Below are positions 329 through 10,084 of a DNA stretch of 33,650 nt, piece after piece. Position 1 is the stretch's first letter. Every line of letters begins with the position of its first letter. The notes beneath the pieces were generated by a model that searched no databases, had not been told where the DNA came from, and was given only the letters and a program-made list of their open reading frames with translations. The DNA is taken from IMG/VR virus record IMGVR_UViG_3300003852_000013, positions 1 through 33,650 of that record. One strand, written 5' to 3'. The position numbers were made by a program, and so were the translations under genes. The DNA is from a virus.

Positions 329-515
329 GTGGTTTTGCGAGACACGACCGGGGATTAGCCCCCACCACGAAAATAAGACTGGTATAGCGAGAACTTTTTT
401 TTCCACAGAAGGTGCATGGCAACTTTCTTCGTCCAAATTCTCGTCCAAATACTCAAATTTTTTTTGCGCGTTTTTTTATAGAATTTTCTATATGGTTTTT
501 CCGGCGGGGTTCTCG

Positions 516-521
516 TAAATA
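516..521 (+). promoter_or_regulatory. TAAATA late-promoter-like motif before the paralogue array
   Basis: TAAATA lies 5 nt before the ATG at 527 with no Shine-Dalgarno sequence between them. It is the probable entry point for the whole rightward array, because the next four start codons overlap or closely follow the preceding stop, up to the second motif before 2824. Confidence 0.6.
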
Positions 522-526
522 CTAAT

Positions 527-1102
527 ATGGAAAAGTTGAGCGGGTTTAAAACATTTTGTGAGACCTTTAACGTGGGTAATATCATGTTAATAACTTACAT
601 ACTTCCTAATACGGATGATGTAAAATTTACAGGTTCACCATCAGGTACAGTAGGTGATTTCACCGTCATGGATGGTAGCTCTCGTGTAGATGGAAATTTT
701 ATAGAAGATAATGTCATTACATTAAAAGATTATCTGATGATGTGTAAAGAGCGGTTAGCAGCATGGAGACCTGATTTAAGCCGTGACATAATATTCTCTG
801 ATATAGCATATACGTATGATGCTTATGGTCTTCCAGAAAAAACAGAAGCTAAGCTTAATCAATATCGAGGTAATATACAGATCCCTAAACTGCGTGAACT
901 CTGTGCTGATTACAAACTGTGGGGACTGTATATACCACCTGATGGTAGTATATCTATAAACCCACAATTTGTTATACCGCTTGGTGTAGATGTCTCAAAT
1001 GAACAAGCTGTTATAGAACACTTTAAACCTGGCAGTACAATATCGCCAGAATACCAAGCTTTGAAGGATAGGTTTAGCAAACCGCGCCGGCAGAAAACAT
1101 AG
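527..1102 (+). CDS. Tandem-array paralogue 1; candidate packaged internal virion protein
   Basis: 191 aa, no database family recognised. It is the first of seven related proteins in tandem. Residues 7-12 read FKTFCE, resembling the capsid-targeting/prohead-cleavage segment at the start of T4 internal proteins, although the match is weaker than in the next two genes. The family core near the C-terminus is LWGLYIP at 131-137 and FVIPLGVDV at 148-156, followed by a basic tail LKDRFSKPRRQK at 179-190. The start is chosen because a TAAATA motif sits 5 nt upstream and the frame begins there. Its stop is two bases before the next ATG, so translation is probably coupled. A role as a head-packaged protein injected with DNA is inference; it could instead be an unrelated small accessory family. 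Confidence 0.75.
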   Translation: MEKLSGFKTFCETFNVGNIMLITYILPNTDDVKFTGSPSGTVGDFTVMDGSSRVDGNFIEDNVITLKDYLMMCKERLAAWRPDLSRDIIFSDIAYTYDAYGLPEKTEAKLNQYRGNIQIPKLRELCADYKLWGLYIPPDGSISINPQFVIPLGVDVSNEQAVIEHFKPGSTISPEYQALKDRFSKPRRQKT

Positions 1103-1104
1103 AT

Positions 1105-1680
1105 ATGAATTCGTTTAAAACATTTTTAACTGAGTCGTTTAATGTGCCAATAGGTATATACCTCTCATATAATGTACCTTCCAGTTGGAGTCCTAGTCAT
1201 GATAGGGTAGGGTACTTTGGTGCTACGGTAGAGACTGGTCAAATTGAGCATTCCTATGGTTACGGTCTCCAGGTGCCTGTTGACTTTGATCCTGATATGG
1301 TTCAGCCGGTGTCGTGTTATCTCGGACAGTGTCTTGGGAGGTCGCGCCGTATTCTTAACACACCTAGTATACCTGACGAAGCTATTGTGCGTGCGTTTAA
1401 TCATAATAGTTTTGAGAGGTACATCTATCAGAATGTATTGTATTATGCTAGGGAGGCTGGCTTTGAGATTCCTGACCTTTATCAGGCAGTTGAAAATAAA
1501 GAATTGTTTGGTTTGATGATTCCAACTATGTATGCTAAAACTGATCTAGATCGTTTTGTTGACTTTATAATTCCGTTAGGTGTAAACGTGGTAAGTAAAC
1601 AGGCAGTGATAGATCACCTATCTAAGAGAAATAATACTTTACGTGACCGCTTCTCAAAACGGCGCCAGTGGAAAAAATAG
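1105..1680 (+). CDS. Tandem-array paralogue 2 with capsid-targeting-like N-terminus
   Basis: 191 aa. The N-terminus MNSFKTFLTE|S resembles the T4 internal-protein targeting sequence (MKTYQEFIAE, from memory), including an L-x-E site of the kind cut by the T4 gp21 prohead protease after Glu10. Core motifs are LFGLMIP at 134-140 and DFIIPLGVNV at 153-162, and the basic tail LRDRFSKRRQWKK closes the protein at 179-191. The stop TAG is separated from the next ATG by two bases, and the same TAGATATGAA junction precedes this gene and follows it. There is no clear Shine-Dalgarno sequence, so reinitiation from the upstream gene is likely. Function is inferred from the N-terminal tag only. Confidence 0.77.
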   Translation: MNSFKTFLTESFNVPIGIYLSYNVPSSWSPSHDRVGYFGATVETGQIEHSYGYGLQVPVDFDPDMVQPVSCYLGQCLGRSRRILNTPSIPDEAIVRAFNHNSFERYIYQNVLYYAREAGFEIPDLYQAVENKELFGLMIPTMYAKTDLDRFVDFIIPLGVNVVSKQAVIDHLSKRNNTLRDRFSKRRQWKK

Positions 1681-1682
1681 AT

Positions 1683-2252
1683 ATGAAACCCTTTGATACA
1701 TTTATTGCAGAGACTTACAAGCGTGAACCTGGCGCCTTGTGGATGTACCTTGACTTTATAATGACACAGGCCAAAGCTCCATATTTCGAGATTCGTATGA
1801 CAAAAGAGCTTCGAGAGCATCAGCGGGAGTTTGAGAGGGTTAATGGTATAGGTGGGTTTTTATCTAAATGTGATCATGTAGTGCGGACGTGTTACACTGG
1901 TAGATATAGTGATGGCTTCTCGGTTAGAAATCATATATACGATGAACAGCATATAGCTCCTGAGATTAACAAGATAGCTGAGGAGTATGATTTTGAGGAT
2001 TGGAACAGGATGCGCCAGATGAGGGTATTGAATGGTACTATCTACGGCTTTATACAACCTGAGCTCAGACGTATTGAGGGTGGATATTACATCTCATTTC
2101 TGATACCCGCCTCAGAGGATTTTACTAGTTTTGATAGTACTATATATGTCTTAAAAAACATGAAGATGCATGGTACCCAATCAGATGGACCTGCTAAACA
2201 GTTTGTTAAGCAATTCGACAAATATAAACAACCGCGACAATGGAAAAAATGA
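1683..2252 (+). CDS. Tandem-array paralogue 3; closest match to the T4 capsid-targeting sequence
   Basis: 189 aa from the ATG at 1683. An in-frame GTG at 1668 lies inside the preceding gene's tail codons and is less likely. The N-terminus MKPFDTFIAE|T has FIAE at the same positions as in T4 internal proteins (MKTYQEFIAE|A, from memory). The family core is IYGFIQP at 120-126 and ISFLIP at 137-142; the tail FDKYKQPRQWKK (178-189) is a variant of the basic DRF tail. The middle is charged and helical-looking, with REHQREFERV near residue 50. Its stop overlaps the next start as ATGA. If the prohead protease acts here, the mature protein would begin at Thr11. Confidence 0.78.
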   Translation: MKPFDTFIAETYKREPGALWMYLDFIMTQAKAPYFEIRMTKELREHQREFERVNGIGGFLSKCDHVVRTCYTGRYSDGFSVRNHIYDEQHIAPEINKIAEEYDFEDWNRMRQMRVLNGTIYGFIQPELRRIEGGYYISFLIPASEDFTSFDSTIYVLKNMKMHGTQSDGPAKQFVKQFDKYKQPRQWKK

Positions 2253-2812
2253 AAAGTTTTAAACAATATACTGAGTCGGTAGATACTATACACGATGTTG
2301 AACGCTGGGCGATTGTCGAGTGTGGTATTGATGCTAGGTTCCCCTGGAGTGTTGGCTTTGCGTTTCAGACGCAGAGTAGTGCTTTCATCCTTAAACACTT
2401 TTCACAGTTTAGCGTGATTACTCATATGATAGATTACTTTGGTAACTGCGGACGCTTTATCGATAGTTCAATAAATGAGAGACTAGGTAAGAACGAGTAT
2501 ATAGAAGAAGTAGAGTCGGCATTTGATAATGCTGGTGTATTACCAGACATCAAGTCTAATGTATATGCATACGGTACTAATAATTTCACTGACCCTATGC
2601 TAGCTCACAAGCTTAACAATATGGATGTATGGGGATTTCAACAAGAGACTGAAGAAGCTAGTAGTTTTGTATATTCAATAGACTTCCTAATACCTCTAGG
2701 TATCAATTGTACAGAAGAATCAGTAATGAAGCAGCTAGTTGATGTAAATGTACGCAAGAATACTAATCCCCTATATAACAAGTATAGTAAACCACGTGTC
2801 TGGAAGAAGTAA
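2249..2812 (+). CDS. Tandem-array paralogue 4
   Basis: 187 aa from the ATG at 2249, chosen because it forms an ATGA overlap with the previous stop and aligns MKSFKQYTE|S with the other N-termini. An ATG three codons upstream (2240) would add MEK. The core motifs are VWGFQQ at 127-132 and IDFLIPLGI at 144-152, with the tail YNKYSKPRVWKK at 176-187. The putative cleavage site is Y-T-E rather than L/I-x-E, so processing is less certain than for the two preceding genes. Between the tags the sequence is highly diverged from its neighbours, as expected for fast-evolving proteins facing host factors (inference). Confidence 0.75.
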   Translation: MKSFKQYTESVDTIHDVERWAIVECGIDARFPWSVGFAFQTQSSAFILKHFSQFSVITHMIDYFGNCGRFIDSSINERLGKNEYIEEVESAFDNAGVLPDIKSNVYAYGTNNFTDPMLAHKLNNMDVWGFQQETEEASSFVYSIDFLIPLGINCTEESVMKQLVDVNVRKNTNPLYNKYSKPRVWKK

Positions 2813-2818
2813 TAAATA
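2813..2818 (+). promoter_or_regulatory. TAAATA motif before the gene at 2824
   Basis: TAAATA begins immediately after the stop codon of the previous gene and ends 5 nt before the ATG at 2824. It is the only internal motif of this kind in the paralogue array and marks the array's one non-overlapping junction with an 11-bp gap. Confidence 0.5.
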
Positions 2819-2823
2819 ACAAT

Positions 2824-3369
2824 ATGGAATCGTTTAAGATTTTTTTAGAGGGTAGTATGGCGTATACTTATTTTACTATACGCTATAAGATACCTCCGGG
2901 TGCTAAATCTTTTGAAGATTTCGATGATGGTTTTGAAGTAGCAGGTGTAACTCATCCTCTCCCACCGGTTAACGAGCGTCAGATTGTAGATAACTCACAA
3001 TTTATACATAATGTCAGGCAGCATATTGCTAAGGTAGCTCATGTCGATGCCTGGATCGGTGGTAATCAGTTTCATAAGAGATATAAAAATTTTTTCGTCT
3101 CTATAGGTAGAGAGATAGCACGTAATCTTCATGTTGAGGAAAATACAGCTGAGTATGGTAACATAATAAACAATATGGAGTTTGGCAACTTCTATGGTTT
3201 TATGTTACCTATAAAAGAGAATGGTTGGATGGAGTTTGTAGTACCTATGACAGTGCACCCTAATAGCAGACATTCAGTAGCTTTTGCATTAGACTCTACC
3301 CTTGACAAATCAGCTGCTGAGTTCCAATCTAAAGTCGATAAATTTAAGGAGCGAAGGCAATGGAAATAA
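2824..3369 (+). CDS. Tandem-array paralogue 5
   Basis: 181 aa. The N-terminus MESFKIFLE|G fits the array pattern, with a possible cleavage at Glu9. The core is FYGFMLP at 123-129 and MEFVVPM at 136-142, and the basic tail is VDKFKERRQWK at 171-181. It has its own upstream TAAATA motif, so it may be transcribed independently of genes 1-4. The last ten bases overlap the next reading frame, and the codons of its basic tail contain the AAGGAG ribosome site used by that gene. Function unknown; candidate internal head protein by its N-terminus. Confidence 0.75.
   Translation: MESFKIFLEGSMAYTYFTIRYKIPPGAKSFEDFDDGFEVAGVTHPLPPVNERQIVDNSQFIHNVRQHIAKVAHVDAWIGGNQFHKRYKNFFVSIGREIARNLHVEENTAEYGNIINNMEFGNFYGFMLPIKENGWMEFVVPMTVHPNSRHSVAFALDSTLDKSAAEFQSKVDKFKERRQWK
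3346..3351 (+). promoter_or_regulatory. Shine-Dalgarno AAGGAG inside the preceding gene's tail codons
   Basis: AAGGAG ends 8 nt before the ATG at 3360. It is one of only three good ribosome-binding sites in the window, all in this array and all embedded in the codons for the conserved basic C-terminal tail. Confidence 0.6.
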
Positions 3370-3692
3370 CGCATAAAATAAATGATGAAGTAGAGATTGA
3401 ATTACATCGGCACCCGTCAGATGATCTAGATGGTAATGAAGGTCGCGTAGCTTTAATGCGTATAAAGGTAATTGATAGAGCTAATGCGAACGGTATGGTT
3501 TATGTCGGTGGTGATATAATTCGACCACCAGCATTTCTACATGATTATAACTTTGATTTAGCGTGGGCTACAGAAGGTCATTTTGTATATGGTAGATATG
3601 ACGCTATAAAGCAGCCAAATCAAGCTAAACCTGACCCTGCTATGCAGAAATATTTAGATAGGTTTAAAAAGAGACGGGAGTGGAAATCATGA
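3360..3692 (+). CDS. Short array member sharing only the basic C-terminal tail
   Basis: 110 aa. It lacks the MKSFKTF-like N-terminus and the YGF...FLIPL core of its neighbours, beginning MEITHKINDEVEIELH. It nevertheless ends in YLDRFKKRREWKS (98-110), the array's shared tail. It is therefore either a different domain to which the tail has been joined or a truncated paralogue. It starts within the last ten bases of the previous gene behind AAGGAG and ends with an ATGA overlap into the next gene. The N-terminal half is acidic with alternating hydrophobic residues suggesting beta strands. No function can be assigned. Confidence 0.7.
   Translation: MEITHKINDEVEIELHRHPSDDLDGNEGRVALMRIKVIDRANANGMVYVGGDIIRPPAFLHDYNFDLAWATEGHFVYGRYDAIKQPNQAKPDPAMQKYLDRFKKRREWKS
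3676..3680 (+). promoter_or_regulatory. Shine-Dalgarno GGGAG for the gene at 3689
   Basis: GGGAG lies in the codons for the tail residues R-R-E and ends 8 nt before the ATG at 3689. It supports choosing that ATG over the upstream GTG at 3680. Confidence 0.55.
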
Positions 3693-4204
3693 AAAGTTTT
3701 AAAACATTTAACCCCGGACCTCATAAATTTCTCAAGATAAAATTTGCTCTCGTCTGGGATGATGATAATCTAGATACTCGATTAGATTACGGCTTCACCC
3801 GTCAGGTATATTACCCACATCTTACTGAAGACAATGCTAGTAAGGTTGATGCGATAGATACCTATATAGACGCCTGTGAAGAAATGTTAGCTGGTGAGAG
3901 TAAAGAAGAGTCTAACATAGATGTAGAGTATGAAGCAATTGAACGTGCCGTATACAATGAAATACTGTCAAATGCTCATCTGACAAGTGATATGGATAGA
4001 CGTAATTTATATATGAGAGTAATGTCTCATGAGCTGTATGGTTTTATTGAAAAGTCCGGTGAATATTCTCTAAGCTTCTTAATACCACTGGAAGTTGATA
4101 GTACACAAAAAAAAGAAGTAGCACAATTTATTGTACAGCTGCCCAATATGGATCTAACAAAGCTTAAAGATAGATTCGCGAAAAGGAGACATGAAAAGAA
4201 ATAG
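3689..4204 (+). CDS. Tandem-array paralogue 7
   Basis: 171 aa from the ATG at 3689, which makes an ATGA overlap with the previous stop and has a GGGAG ribosome site; the GTG at 3680 is an unlikely alternative. MKSFKTF opens the protein as in its paralogues, but the following NPG has no Glu, so the prohead-protease-type site is missing. The core is intact (LYGFIEK at 116-122, LSFLIPLEV at 128-136) and the tail LKDRFAKRRHEKK (159-171) is typical. The central region is strongly acidic. If N-terminal processing matters in this family, this member would stay uncleaved or be non-packaged. Confidence 0.74.
   Translation: MKSFKTFNPGPHKFLKIKFALVWDDDNLDTRLDYGFTRQVYYPHLTEDNASKVDAIDTYIDACEEMLAGESKEESNIDVEYEAIERAVYNEILSNAHLTSDMDRRNLYMRVMSHELYGFIEKSGEYSLSFLIPLEVDSTQKKEVAQFIVQLPNMDLTKLKDRFAKRRHEKK
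4183..4188 (+). promoter_or_regulatory. Shine-Dalgarno AAGGAG, unusually close to the start at 4191
   Basis: AAGGAG ends only two bases before the ATG at 4191, shorter than the usual 5-9. No other in-frame start lies between it and the conserved YRFDTLVE segment, so the start is still the best choice. The site lies in the tail codons of the previous gene. Confidence 0.45.
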
Positions 4205-4805
4205 ACTATACAGATTTGATACGTTAGTTGAGAATGCTACGACCGGTGGTGATTACAAGCCTTGTATAGTGATGACGAGCAGGTTACCTGATATTATAAA
4301 AAAGACTCATGAAATAGCAGGTGATACTAAGGTTTGTAGGATAGATGTTAGTGTAGATACTGTAGATATTAATAGTATCCATATAGCTGATACAATAAGC
4401 TTTGATGAGTTTATTGAACGGACTAGATTGTTAGCGCAAAAGGATATGGATACACTAGTGTCTTATTCAGATGTCGCAAAGATATTTGATGAGAGAGCGA
4501 AGGATGTGATTGCTCACTATGTATGTGAGTCTCTTAAACTGCAAGGTCATGAAAGAAAAGACATGGAGTGGAATATAGCAGATTATATTAGTGTATATGG
4601 TTGTCTGATTAAACGAGGACCTATATATGATGCAGAGAGCGTGCAAATAATAATACCACTCAATGTTGACATTGGTGATAAGAATTTAGTTGCAAGATCT
4701 ATGGCGAGGTATCAGGGTGTTTATAAGGATCTCAAAGACCGCTTTTCAGCTCGCCGTCAACATAAACCATTAAAACAAGAGAAGAGTACAGAATCAGGAG
4801 TATAA
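4191..4805 (+). CDS. Tandem-array paralogue 8, last of the array, C-terminally extended
   Basis: 204 aa. The N-terminus MKRNRLYRFDTLVE|N carries the array segment displaced by six residues, with an L-V-E site. The core is VYGCLIK at 135-141 and IIIPLNVD at 153-160. The basic tail LKDRFSARRQHK (181-192) is followed by a further 12 residues not present in the other members. The start overlaps the previous gene by 14 bases. Its stop codon forms part of the TATAAATA motif that precedes the next gene. As with the others, a head-packaged role is inferred from the N-terminal tag. Confidence 0.74.
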   Translation: MKRNRLYRFDTLVENATTGGDYKPCIVMTSRLPDIIKKTHEIAGDTKVCRIDVSVDTVDINSIHIADTISFDEFIERTRLLAQKDMDTLVSYSDVAKIFDERAKDVIAHYVCESLKLQGHERKDMEWNIADYISVYGCLIKRGPIYDAESVQIIIPLNVDIGDKNLVARSMARYQGVYKDLKDRFSARRQHKPLKQEKSTESGV

Positions 4806-4808
4806 ATA
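4801..4808 (+). promoter_or_regulatory. TATAAATA, exact T4 late-promoter consensus
   Basis: TATAAATA spans the stop codon of the last array gene and ends 5 nt before the ATG at 4814. This is the window's exact 8-bp match to the T4 late promoter consensus and supports reading the shorter TAAATA motifs as late promoters. Confidence 0.65.
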
Positions 4809-4813
4809 ATTGT

Positions 4814-5245
4814 ATGCTAAGAAGAGAAAAACGTAAAACTGCGACTAATGTTGTCAATAAGACTCACACAACAGATAGGAACATCTATTCACAATATTTG
4901 AAGGTTCAGGAGTCTACTGATGAAGAGGGTATGGGACCTGAGTATCGCAAACGTTCTGACGAAGCACCAACACCCGGTGAACATGATGAATCACATGGAG
5001 GTAGTGAAGGTGAAGTAGAGGTTTACGCTGTACACGTTGTAGGTGATAAGATCGAAGACAGTGCAGAGATCACTGCAGGCGAGTGGTGTCCGGAGTGTTG
5101 TATAAATGCATTACTTGAACACGAAGGTGAAGAGAAGTTAACTGCAGATGATATGGATAGAGAATATACGGTAGCTAGTGATGACCACACGATCTTCATA
5201 ATGAAGAATGATCATGATGTTCATTACATTTTTATTAAACAGTAA
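4814..5245 (+). CDS. Unknown acidic protein with a Cys-rich WCPECC segment
   Basis: 143 aa, family not recognised. The first 20 residues are basic (MLRREKRKTATNVVNK), the middle is Glu/Asp/Gly-rich, and WCPECC near residues 92-97 offers a possible metal or disulphide site. The C-terminal 30 residues alternate hydrophobic and charged residues (HTIFIMKNDHDVHYIFIKQ), suggesting beta strands. The start follows a TATAAATA motif by 5 nt. It lacks the array's N-terminal and C-terminal tags, so it is a separate gene downstream of the family, three bases before the membrane-protein gene and probably cotranscribed with it. Confidence 0.65.
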   Translation: MLRREKRKTATNVVNKTHTTDRNIYSQYLKVQESTDEEGMGPEYRKRSDEAPTPGEHDESHGGSEGEVEVYAVHVVGDKIEDSAEITAGEWCPECCINALLEHEGEEKLTADDMDREYTVASDDHTIFIMKNDHDVHYIFIKQ

Positions 5246-5539: not shown

Positions 5540-5566
5540 AGTATATTGATTTATTGTACATCTCAG

Positions 5567-5572
5567 TAAATA
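5567..5572 (+). promoter_or_regulatory. TAAATA motif before the gene at 5579
   Basis: TAAATA ends 6 nt before the ATG, in the 39-bp gap after the membrane-protein gene. The gap contains no hairpin with a T-run, so upstream transcription may also continue through. Confidence 0.55.
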
Positions 5573-5578
5573 CTGTAT

Positions 5579-6190
5579 ATGACATCTCCGATTGAAAACG
5601 ATCTAAACAGCATTGATACTCTTATCGGTGTAGGTTCAAAACAATCAGACTATCTGTTAGATCAAGCAGGTCAAAGATTCTCTCTAGTATCTGCTATAAC
5701 TAGTCACCCTGATTTCACAACAGCAGCTGGTGTATTTGCAGCTGTCATCGATGATAATTGTCGTTATAGGTTTGAAACGTACAGTCAAAACTTCATACGT
5801 AATAACGGTAGCTATTTTGGTAATTCACGAGACTATAGAGGTAACTTAAAAAACTGGACGATTACATGGAATACAACTACCATAACATATGATGGGTTTG
5901 TAAGCAATTATCAACCAACTGGTTTGATACCAATGATTACTGCTCCAAGTGCACCGGTTACATATTTCGAATTATCTACATTTACGTTCATGGCAAATCA
6001 GTTTGCTTTCTTAAATCAGTACCTGTGGGCGGATCCAACAAACCCTTCTTTATCTGCATATGCAACCAGTCCTAATATGAAGTATGGGGTGTATTATAGC
6101 GCAAAGAGTACTACTGGAGCAGCTAGCGCAATACAGATCGATACTGCGTTTTACTTAAACAAGAAAGAATTTCTAACACCATTAGCATGA
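5579..6190 (+). CDS. Unknown protein, possibly structural
   Basis: 203 aa, not recognised. The first 40 residues (MTSPIENDLNSIDTLIGVG and onward) look soluble and helical. The remainder is rich in Asn, Thr, Ser, Tyr and Phe with alternating hydrophobic residues, a composition common in phage beta-rich virion proteins. There is no signal peptide or membrane segment. The start follows TAAATA by 6 nt and the stop overlaps the next start as ATGA, tying it to the secreted-protein gene that follows. A two-gene unit whose products act together is plausible but unproven. Confidence 0.65.
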   Translation: MTSPIENDLNSIDTLIGVGSKQSDYLLDQAGQRFSLVSAITSHPDFTTAAGVFAAVIDDNCRYRFETYSQNFIRNNGSYFGNSRDYRGNLKNWTITWNTTTITYDGFVSNYQPTGLIPMITAPSAPVTYFELSTFTFMANQFAFLNQYLWADPTNPSLSAYATSPNMKYGVYYSAKSTTGAASAIQIDTAFYLNKKEFLTPLA

Positions 6191-6795
6191 GATTATTTCT
6201 ATACATTACATTCTTTGTGATGCTCCATTTAACATCACATTCACAGCCTATAGCATCACCAACTCCACCACCTCAATTCTACAGTAATATACTAACATCT
6301 AGCCAGTCGATTCTCGATATTACTAAGAAGTGGTTAGATACAAATGCTTTAGCAAAAACGTCGAAGAAGTGGATAGTTGTACCGTATATGACGTATGCTC
6401 CAAATGGACCTGCACACGTTGGTGGTGGCCTGTTTTGCATCTATCAAGTATCAGATATTATCGGTATGGGAATTGGTATTGATTATCTAGGACAACTATC
6501 AATGCCTAGTGGACAAGTATCTGTTAAGTTTCCAACTCAACCACTATTAAAGTTTGGTATACCATGGACGTTTACACCGTTTGCTTTTACGGGTGTCGCT
6601 GTACCAGTGTTAGATAAGGTTAACAGGTTTTCTACTTTAGCTGGTAGCGGATTGTCCATTAGAATGCACAAATTTACAATCTTCGGAAAGCAAGCAGAGG
6701 CTGGTGTTGCAGGTGCAGCAGTTAGATGGATGGGCACTAGCGAGTATAGTGGTACGCATTATAGTATCATGCCTGTACTTCACGTTATACTTTAA
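6187..6795 (+). CDS. Secreted or outer-membrane-type protein with signal peptide
   Basis: 202 aa. MRLFLYITFFVMLHLTSHS is a clear export signal: a positively charged start, a hydrophobic core and a small/polar end. The mature protein would begin near QPIASPTPPP. The rest has glycine-rich alternating segments (HVGGGLFCIY, IGMGIGIDYLGQL, FTPFAFTGVAVPV) suggesting beta strands, so a periplasmic or outer-membrane barrel-like protein is possible. It does not end in the aromatic residue typical of outer-membrane barrels, which lowers that call. Translationally coupled to the gene at 5579. Possible roles include altering the cell surface against superinfection or helping lysis; neither is shown by the sequence. 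Confidence 0.65.
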   Translation: MRLFLYITFFVMLHLTSHSQPIASPTPPPQFYSNILTSSQSILDITKKWLDTNALAKTSKKWIVVPYMTYAPNGPAHVGGGLFCIYQVSDIIGMGIGIDYLGQLSMPSGQVSVKFPTQPLLKFGIPWTFTPFAFTGVAVPVLDKVNRFSTLAGSGLSIRMHKFTIFGKQAEAGVAGAAVRWMGTSEYSGTHYSIMPVLHVIL

Positions 6796-8548: not shown

Positions 8549-8554
8549 TATTTA
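8549..8554 (-). promoter_or_regulatory. TAAATA motif before the fibre-like gene
   Basis: On the minus strand TAAATA is at 8554-8549, 5 nt before the ATG at 8543. The first three bases are the stop codon of the upstream gene, so promoter and stop are nested. Confidence 0.55.
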
Positions 8555-10084
8555 TTGGTATGTTATAGAAATATACTCACTACCTATATAAGGTGCACCT
8601 GAATTAGCTGGGTCATCTATTATAAAGAGCTCAGGTGTACCGGGAACGGAGTTATCATTTGAACCGGTAATCACTTGACCTCTTGACAGTAATGCGGGGT
8701 TAGGGTCGAGACCTATATAATCTGCTGCAGAATAGCTGTATGATAATGTTGCATCGTACGCGTTTATATTGACATTTTGTATAACGACATATGTATTGTC
8801 GTTTAAAATTTCAAAGGCTACATAGACTCTGCAGTATCTAGTTGTTGCAGACTCTAGAGGAACTGTTAGATAATTTGTGAATACGCGATCGGTTGTGTAC
8901 TTACAGTCTACGTATACTGCAGTGCCGAGATTTGCTAGACGAATTCTGGTTCTGTTAGGTGTACCTTGTGCTATATTAAATGGTACAGCGGCAGAGGATA
9001 GATTACCAGTATTCGCAAGTAGTGGGAATCCATTAGCTGCCTGTCCTCTGACGCTTATAGAGTTAGGTTCATATGCAGTTAGTCCACCTGTACCTGTTTC
9101 ATCAGAAGCAAAGCCACCAGAGAAATCTAAGCATACACCTACTTGAGCATCTAAAACACCGCTAGTAACATCACCGCTAGAGTAACCTGCTCCAGCTGCA
9201 GCTGTTTCACCCTCTGGAGCAACTCTATAAAATGGTAAGAAGCCTACTAATATACTACCACTAGGCGATACAGTTAGATTGTTTGAATAAGCGGTGTAAT
9301 CAACCGTAACAACTACATCTTTATGAGCGTCGAACACAGTATCATAAAATAGGACTGGCAGCGCTGGTTCATACGGTGTCGCTGTCGGAGTAGGTGATAT
9401 CGTTGGTGTTGGTGATACCGTTGGTGTTGGTGACGGTGTTGGTGATACCGTTGGTGTTGGTGACGGTGTTGGTGATACCGTTGGTGTTGGTGTTGCTGTT
9501 GGTACCGTTGTAGCTGTTGGTACTGGTGTAGCTGTTGGACCTATCCAGGGTGTAGGTGTAGGTGGTATCGGAGTCGCTGTTGGTACAGGTGTGGGTGTAG
9601 GTGGTATCGGAGTTGCTGTTGGTACAATAGTCGGAGTAGGTACAGGAGTTGCAGTGGGTACAGGTGTCGCTGTTGGTACAGGTGTAGGAGTTGCCGTTGG
9701 TGTCGGCGTCGGTGTCGGAGTCGAAGTTGGTATTGGGGTCGGTGTTGATGTTGGCGATGCTGTTGGTGTTGGTGGTAACGGAGTCGCTGTTGGGGTCGGT
9801 GCAGGTGCATAGTTATGCCAAACCGCTGACCCAGTGCCGCCATTAAAATCGTATGGTATAGTGTCTGGTGGGTTATGAGGAGCATCAGGGAAATTACCTA
9901 GTATTACCTTGCTAGGCGTATATAGAACCCAACCGAATCCACGTCCTATCCATATAAGCCTATAACCTACTCCAGTAGTTCTTATCAACGTATATTGATT
10001 AGCACCGAACTTATCAGAGCTATATGTACCGTCGTAGGTTCCATCCTGTGTACCTGATATAATTGATGTGTATATTGTTGACAT
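8552..10084 (-). CDS. Virion protein with a long Pro/Thr-rich linker (adhesin/fibre-like)
   Basis: 510 aa in three parts. Residues 1-93 form a small globular domain ([20 protein letters not shown]). Residues 94-240 are an almost pure Pro/Thr/Ala/Ser/Val linker of PTPTATP and [10 protein letters not shown] type, broken once by WIG at 180-182. Residues 241-510 are a beta-rich C-terminal domain ([21 protein letters not shown] and onward in parts). Such linkers act as stiff extended spacers between domains, so this looks like a tail-attached protein that holds a binding domain away from the baseplate. The start overlaps the previous stop as TAATG. The repeat tract is the most length-variable sequence in the window and a likely place for strain differences. 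Confidence 0.65.
9365..9805 (-). repeat. Low-complexity tract encoding the Pro/Thr linker, with a 30-bp repeat core
   Basis: The tract encodes residues 94-240 of the linker protein. Within about 9395-9485 a 30-bp unit encoding [10 protein letters not shown] is repeated twice almost exactly, with a third diverged copy. On the plus strand it is a run of GGTGTT/GGTGTA-type triplets, which also creates a meaningless Gly/Val antisense frame. Slippage or recombination could change its length. Confidence 0.8.

Follow-up and report, generated by a model that had tools for sequence, protein, structure and literature searches.

The internal proteins of phage T4 are injected, block type IV restriction, and have only an N-terminal leader in common (PMC12373910). 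These proteins and their capsid-targeting sequence have been reviewed previously (PMC9026906, PMC3012670), and mutation of the latter showed that positions 4 and 7 govern targeting, with positions 8 and 10 governing processing (PMC9026906). Because only this ten-residue tag is shared, injected proteins outside of the T-even phages are hard to spot. Another comparable system is found in SPN3US and phiKZ, which encode head paralogue families A (PF12699) and B; members of family A share an identical processed N-terminal start, and family B is mostly encoded in a gene row (PMC5694885).

The window analyzed here, i.e., the whole stretch of DNA under consideration, corresponds to positions 1–33,650 of a 52,845-base IMG/VR record (a 52.8-kb fragment), which is identified from its gene content as a fragment of a very divergent T4-superfamily myovirus. 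The sheath gene shows a ~34% match to T4-like phages, the window includes a T4-type tail module with sheath and gp6-type baseplate wedge, and terminase and gp14-type head closure genes follow where the module continues beyond the window end. Sister contigs, connected via the terminase (52–71% identity), are syntenic with most of the remaining record, and a T4-type portal was identified in three of them. Searches of the 52.8-kb fragment and of the sister fragments revealed neither a gp21-type prohead protease nor a gp23-type capsid gene, although the T4 protease used as a control was found, and the main head genes seem to lie outside of the record. Also encoded in the window is a fibre-like protein containing a long repeat rich in Pro and Thr (PTPTATPTP…; 8552–10084, minus strand), and beside the array described below lies an orphan of 202 aa that has a barrel-like sequence and a likely signal peptide (6187–6795).

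Between positions 527 and 4805 of the window, seven plus-strand ORFs encoding proteins of 171–204 aa form a single paralogous family, whose members are designated hereafter by their start positions. The features of this array are as follows:

514–521, plus strand: late-promoter-like sequence CGTAAATA, 5 nt upstream of the ATG of the first gene.
527–1102, plus strand: family member 1, 191 aa; tag LSGFKTFCE after three extra residues; core LWGL..FVIPLGVDV; tail ALKDRFSKPRRQKT.
1105–1680, plus strand: family member 2, 191 aa; tag MNSFKTFLTE; core LFGL..FIIPLGVNV; tail LRDRFSKRRQWKK; AlphaFold2 pTM 0.66.
1683–2252, plus strand: family member 3, 189 aa; tag MKPFDTFIAE (FIAE as in T4 IPII and IPIII); tail FDKYKQPRQWKK.
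2249–2812, plus strand: family member 4, 187 aa; tag MKSFKQYTE; core VWGF..FLIPLGINC; tail YNKYSKPRVWKK.
2811–2818, plus strand: late-promoter-like sequence AATAAATA, 5 nt upstream of the ATG of the fifth gene.
2824–3369, plus strand: family member 5, 181 aa; tag MESFKIFLE; core FYGF..FVVPMTV; tail VDKFKERRQWK.
3360–3692, plus strand: tail-only gene, 110 aa; neither N-terminal tag nor core; C-terminal end YLDRFKKRREWKS; overlooked in the original prediction.
3689–4204, plus strand: family member 6, 171 aa; tag MKSFKTF, no Glu site; core LYGF..FLIPLEVD; tail LKDRFAKRRHEKK.
4191–4805, plus strand: family member 7, 204 aa, the most divergent; tag RFDTLVE after five extra residues; core VYGC..IIIPLNVD; tail LKDRFSARRQHKP followed by 11 residues.
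4801–4808, plus strand: late-promoter motif TATAAATA, exact T4 consensus, 5 nt upstream of an unrelated gene (4814–5245), at the array end.

Family membership was assessed by shuffle tests and leave-one-out HMMs. Full-length pair scores exceeded all of 200 shuffles in 17 of the 21 pairs (Z 20.7 for the pair 527/1105, 200 shuffles), and the region that starts at the [YWF]G[FLC] core and stops short of the tail was significant in most pairs. For the middle stretches, significance was never reached (best Z 1.3). Similarly, when searched against a decoy set of 1,667 ORFs, leave-one-out HMMs recovered all seven members with E-values of 2.6e-6 to 1.2e-18 (best decoy, 0.025), and all seven were still detected at E ≤ 0.01 once the first 14 residues and the tail had been trimmed off, while HMMs of the middles alone did not rise above decoys. 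The ends and the C-terminal core are thus common to the seven members, and the middle has diverged beyond sequence recognition. The original prediction had proposed a shared N-terminal tag, core, and basic tail surrounding almost unrelated middles, and alignment, shuffle tests, and HMMs bore this out. It had also described seven consecutive plus-strand genes: all seven are present at the expected positions and sizes, but the row is broken by the 110-aa gene between the fifth and the sixth.

This 110-aa gene matches the family profile through its last 20 residues only (hhalign, E 1.7e-5), so the tail is detachable from the rest of the protein. Tail codons for Asp, Arg, Phe, and Ser vary between copies, including AGC/TCA serines, while the residues stay alike, which indicates that the tail is maintained as protein and not as DNA. 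The DNA of the N-terminal tag is more uniform than that of the tail, with TTTAAAACATTT found in three genes. A ribosome-binding site and overlap with the start codon of the following gene were both rejected as a DNA-level cause of the tail, since its codons show synonymous variation and it is also found at the end of non-overlapping genes. No comparable tail was found on other proteins of the record or of the scanned sister contigs. The bodies of the family members are acidic (pI 4.4–6.2), and the tail alone is basic.

At the other end of these proteins, the tags MNSFKTFLTE and MKPFDTFIAE give a gap-free alignment to MKTYQEFIAE, the capsid-targeting sequence of T4, which extends to positions 4 and 7; the T4 record shows MKTYQEFIAEA as the start of IPII and IPIII and MKTFKEF as that of IPI. 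Five of the seven members (1105, 1683, 2249, 2824, and 3689) have an aromatic residue at position 4 and another at position 7. The register is shifted by three residues in 527 and by five in 4191, in which the second aromatic is replaced by Leu. The processing positions, with position 8 hydrophobic and position 10 a Glu, are exact in two members (1105 and 1683). In 2249 and 2824 the Glu comes one residue sooner, as it does in 527 and 4191 when the shift in register is taken into account, and 3689 has no Glu. A loose tag pattern was detected in 6/7 members compared to 40/748 (~5%) background genes of the clade, non-virion enzymes among them, yet the nominal p-value of 1.6e-7 is not to be taken at face value because this pattern was defined post hoc and paralogues are non-independent. 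Across the clade, the tag was enriched in late genes only to a suggestive degree (p 0.08), and within the family its conservation exceeds that of the middle.

F..F-type starts were also observed in sister phages, on sequence-unrelated proteins encoded in a plus-strand cluster (L094 13529–18519, L102 8–6151, L104 9174–14324, and L124 15842–18680), among them one with GVNE following the tag, a ligase-like protein, and a protein resembling nucleotidylyltransferases that has GRFQPFHxGH. The proteins of this cluster are perhaps also packaged. Separately, a late 104-aa protein is encoded beside gp14 and terminase (L002 2694–3008; 35693–36007 of the record), and its distant homologues retain an F..F start while the residues next to it vary.

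The predicted structure of member 1105, obtained with AlphaFold2 from the seven paralogues as input, is of moderate confidence (pLDDT 67, pTM 0.66), and consists of two strands, helices, a hairpin built by the conserved core, and a C-terminal helix running into the tail. Residues 1–9, which correspond to the tag, lie ahead of the first strand with very low confidence, and this stretch is probably disordered in light of the model. A second model, for member 3689, is of low confidence (pLDDT 45), with an order of elements only loosely consistent with that of 1105. When the 1105 model was compared to known structures, Foldseek gave no hit to PDB or BFVD at E ≤ 0.001 and the best VIA Z was 2.5, which is a weak test at this model confidence. 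The structure prediction proposed originally as a check for a common core lends partial support to one fold through the model of 1105, that of 3689 being too poor to carry much weight. The simplest reading of these sequences and models would be a single fold with a diverged middle rather than different payload domains. The suggestion that the middles represent different payloads is accordingly not supported, as the homologous C-terminal core and the moderate-confidence strand-strand-helices-hairpin-helix model point to one fold. The middles were also considered as separate known domains, which was rejected as they had no Pfam, PHROG, or PADLOC match.

No relatives of the family were found in PHROGs, Pfam, PDB, annotated phages, IMG/VR, or the sister contigs. 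IMG/VR scans with members 527, 1105, 2249, and 3689 and with the C-terminal core alignment returned nothing, as did a genome scan with the same core alignment and a scan with a 203-aa neighbour protein. A scan with the phosphoribosyltransferase neighbour retrieved only distant homologues (≤40%), and covers these homologues themselves. In annotated phages, tblastn yielded no relative, with chance hits only (E 0.9 or worse), and the family HMM matched only its own record when searched against 43 sister contigs, many of them short. No member matched Pfam, PF12699 included, apart from one irrelevant hit (E 0.19); one member had a PADLOC hit to HEC-01B (E 0.0025), and a weak profile hit to McrA (E 1.1) was dismissed as chance. 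The profile search initially suggested as a way to find viral relatives was hence negative across these libraries, in all of which the absence of any described family with this combination of features held. Judging from sequence, the array would correspond to no described family, with no relative in the libraries searched, and may represent a T4-like internal-protein set derived from tandem duplication, with a second conserved end.

The T4 late-promoter consensus TATAAATA is located at −13 to −6 (PMC1524935). In the record, TAAATA motifs with a 5–6-nt gap were found upstream of 13 of the 19 motif-bearing genes, compared to 23 of 29 in G006, and many genes in each sister phage have the motif at this distance. 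The motif also precedes the tube and sheath genes, at gaps of 9–13 nt, as well as several other virion-region genes, and was not found close upstream of the clamp loader, clamp, helicase, single-strand-binding, UvsX, and primase genes. Given the motifs at genes 527 and 2824 and none at replication genes, late expression of the array is likely. Expression at early times only, which would have contradicted the original prediction, is argued against by these T4-type motifs upstream of the array. Short-gap late-promoter motifs were observed clade-wide (window positions 514–521, 2811–2818, 4801–4808, and 5565–5572, and genes across L002 and L091–L120), mostly without an evident ribosome-binding site, whereas the T4 gap is mostly 24–28 nt with a ribosome-binding site. 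With the T4 box at −13 to −6, a 5–6-nt gap would place the transcript start at the start codon, which implies that late mRNAs of this clade are leaderless, as predicted from the motif positions.

Compared to the T4 internal proteins, the family is likewise found in a T4-superfamily phage and includes small proteins (171–204 aa, vs. 95–193 aa in T4) with a conserved tag and diverging bodies, the tag being ~10 residues long with aromatics at positions 4 and 7, and with hydrophobic-8/Glu-10 in two members. Unlike T4 internal proteins, however, all proteins of this family have a basic tail in common as well as a homologous C-terminal core, and seven are encoded in one array. Their bodies are acidic (pI 4.4–6.2) whereas T4 internal proteins are basic (pI 8.9–9.5), and late-promoter motifs precede the array while no TAAATA was found within 60 nt upstream of the T4 ip genes. 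An hhalign comparison of the family to T4 IPIII aligned six tag residues only, which was not significant, with no match to the IPIII body. On these features, we would not file the family as T4 internal proteins; the claim, drawn by analogy, is that it may work like them. As for the SPN3US and phiKZ families, these are similarly large paralogous sets, with a processed shared start (family A) and a gene row (family B, mostly), but there is no PF12699 match here, the phage is T4-type and not phiKZ-type, and a ~10-residue tag contrasts with a propeptide of ~125 residues.

Overall, we consider it somewhat probable, by analogy to T4, that the seven genes represent a lineage-specific and late-made family that is packaged in the head, enters the host with the DNA, and works like the T4 internal proteins. 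The array would be transcribed late from the two late promoters, for which motif and spacing are observed, and the first ~10 residues would act as a capsid-targeting sequence docking each protein on the prohead scaffold. Most members could then be clipped after a Glu by the prohead protease, a processing machinery that is assumed here since neither this protease nor a gp23-type capsid was found. The basic tail may let an acidic protein sit among packaged DNA, or may represent a second packaging signal. After injection, each member would bind a host target via the common fold with its diverged middle, and the likeliest targets, again by analogy to T4, would be restriction or other defence enzymes. 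The packaged set suggested in the original prediction is partly supported by indirect evidence, namely the T4-superfamily affiliation of the phage, the tag match at the positions defined by mutation in T4, and the late-promoter motifs. The F..F-type starts in sister phages and the probable disorder of the tag also speak for packaging. Acidic bodies, exact positions 8 and 10 in only two of the seven tags, the lack of Glu in 3689, the post hoc tag pattern with its weak enrichment, and the T4 ip genes having no TAAATA of their own within 60 nt count against it. A more specific version of this proposal, which we hold as tentative and rather doubtful, is a two-ended delivery, in which an N-terminal capsid-targeting tag and a detachable basic tail, the latter also carried by the unrelated 110-aa protein, would load an expanding one-fold family with target-facing, fast-diverging middles into a T4-type head. 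This would result in an injected multi-copy counter-defence set, in contrast to T4, whose internal proteins are unrelated.

Three other explanations were considered. These proteins could be non-injected structural or assembly proteins of the particle that are made late, such as decoration, neck, or fibre-assembly factors, and whose shared ends are conserved structural elements. This would fit the late-promoter motifs and the location of the array a few kb from tail-fibre genes, and in sister phages the place beyond the baseplate genes holds fibre proteins, with the array family absent. Yet small, acidic proteins with an apparently disordered N-terminal tag and no fibre or coat repeats are not what this role predicts, seven diverged paralogues would be unusual for it, and the T4-like tag positions speak against it as well, so that we regard it as rather unlikely. 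Alternatively, the family could consist of late intracellular proteins acting on phage DNA or on the host and never packaged, with the likeness to the T4 tag due to chance or to a general feature of gene starts in the clade. The loose tag pattern does occur in ~5% of clade genes, non-virion enzymes included, one member lacks a processing site, and the bodies are acidic; nevertheless, six of the seven members fit a pattern found in 5% of genes, both aromatics are exactly at the T4 positions in five members, and conservation is higher in the tag than in the middle, making this explanation unlikely.

Finally, delivery may be real with the C-terminal tail as the packaging or DNA-binding signal, and the N-terminal tag a leftover or a protease site only. 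An otherwise unrelated 110-aa array gene carrying the tail without the N-terminal tag is consistent with this idea, as is a tail varying far more in synonymous codons than in residues. However, the tail was found on no other protein of the record or scanned sister contigs, and the N-terminal tag alone suffices in T4, and we consider this explanation quite improbable.

A family of seven members that have the core and both ends in common would allow the tag, tail, and variable region to be tested separately. It would also provide a handle for finding injected proteins in the many environmental T4-like phages without a cultured member.
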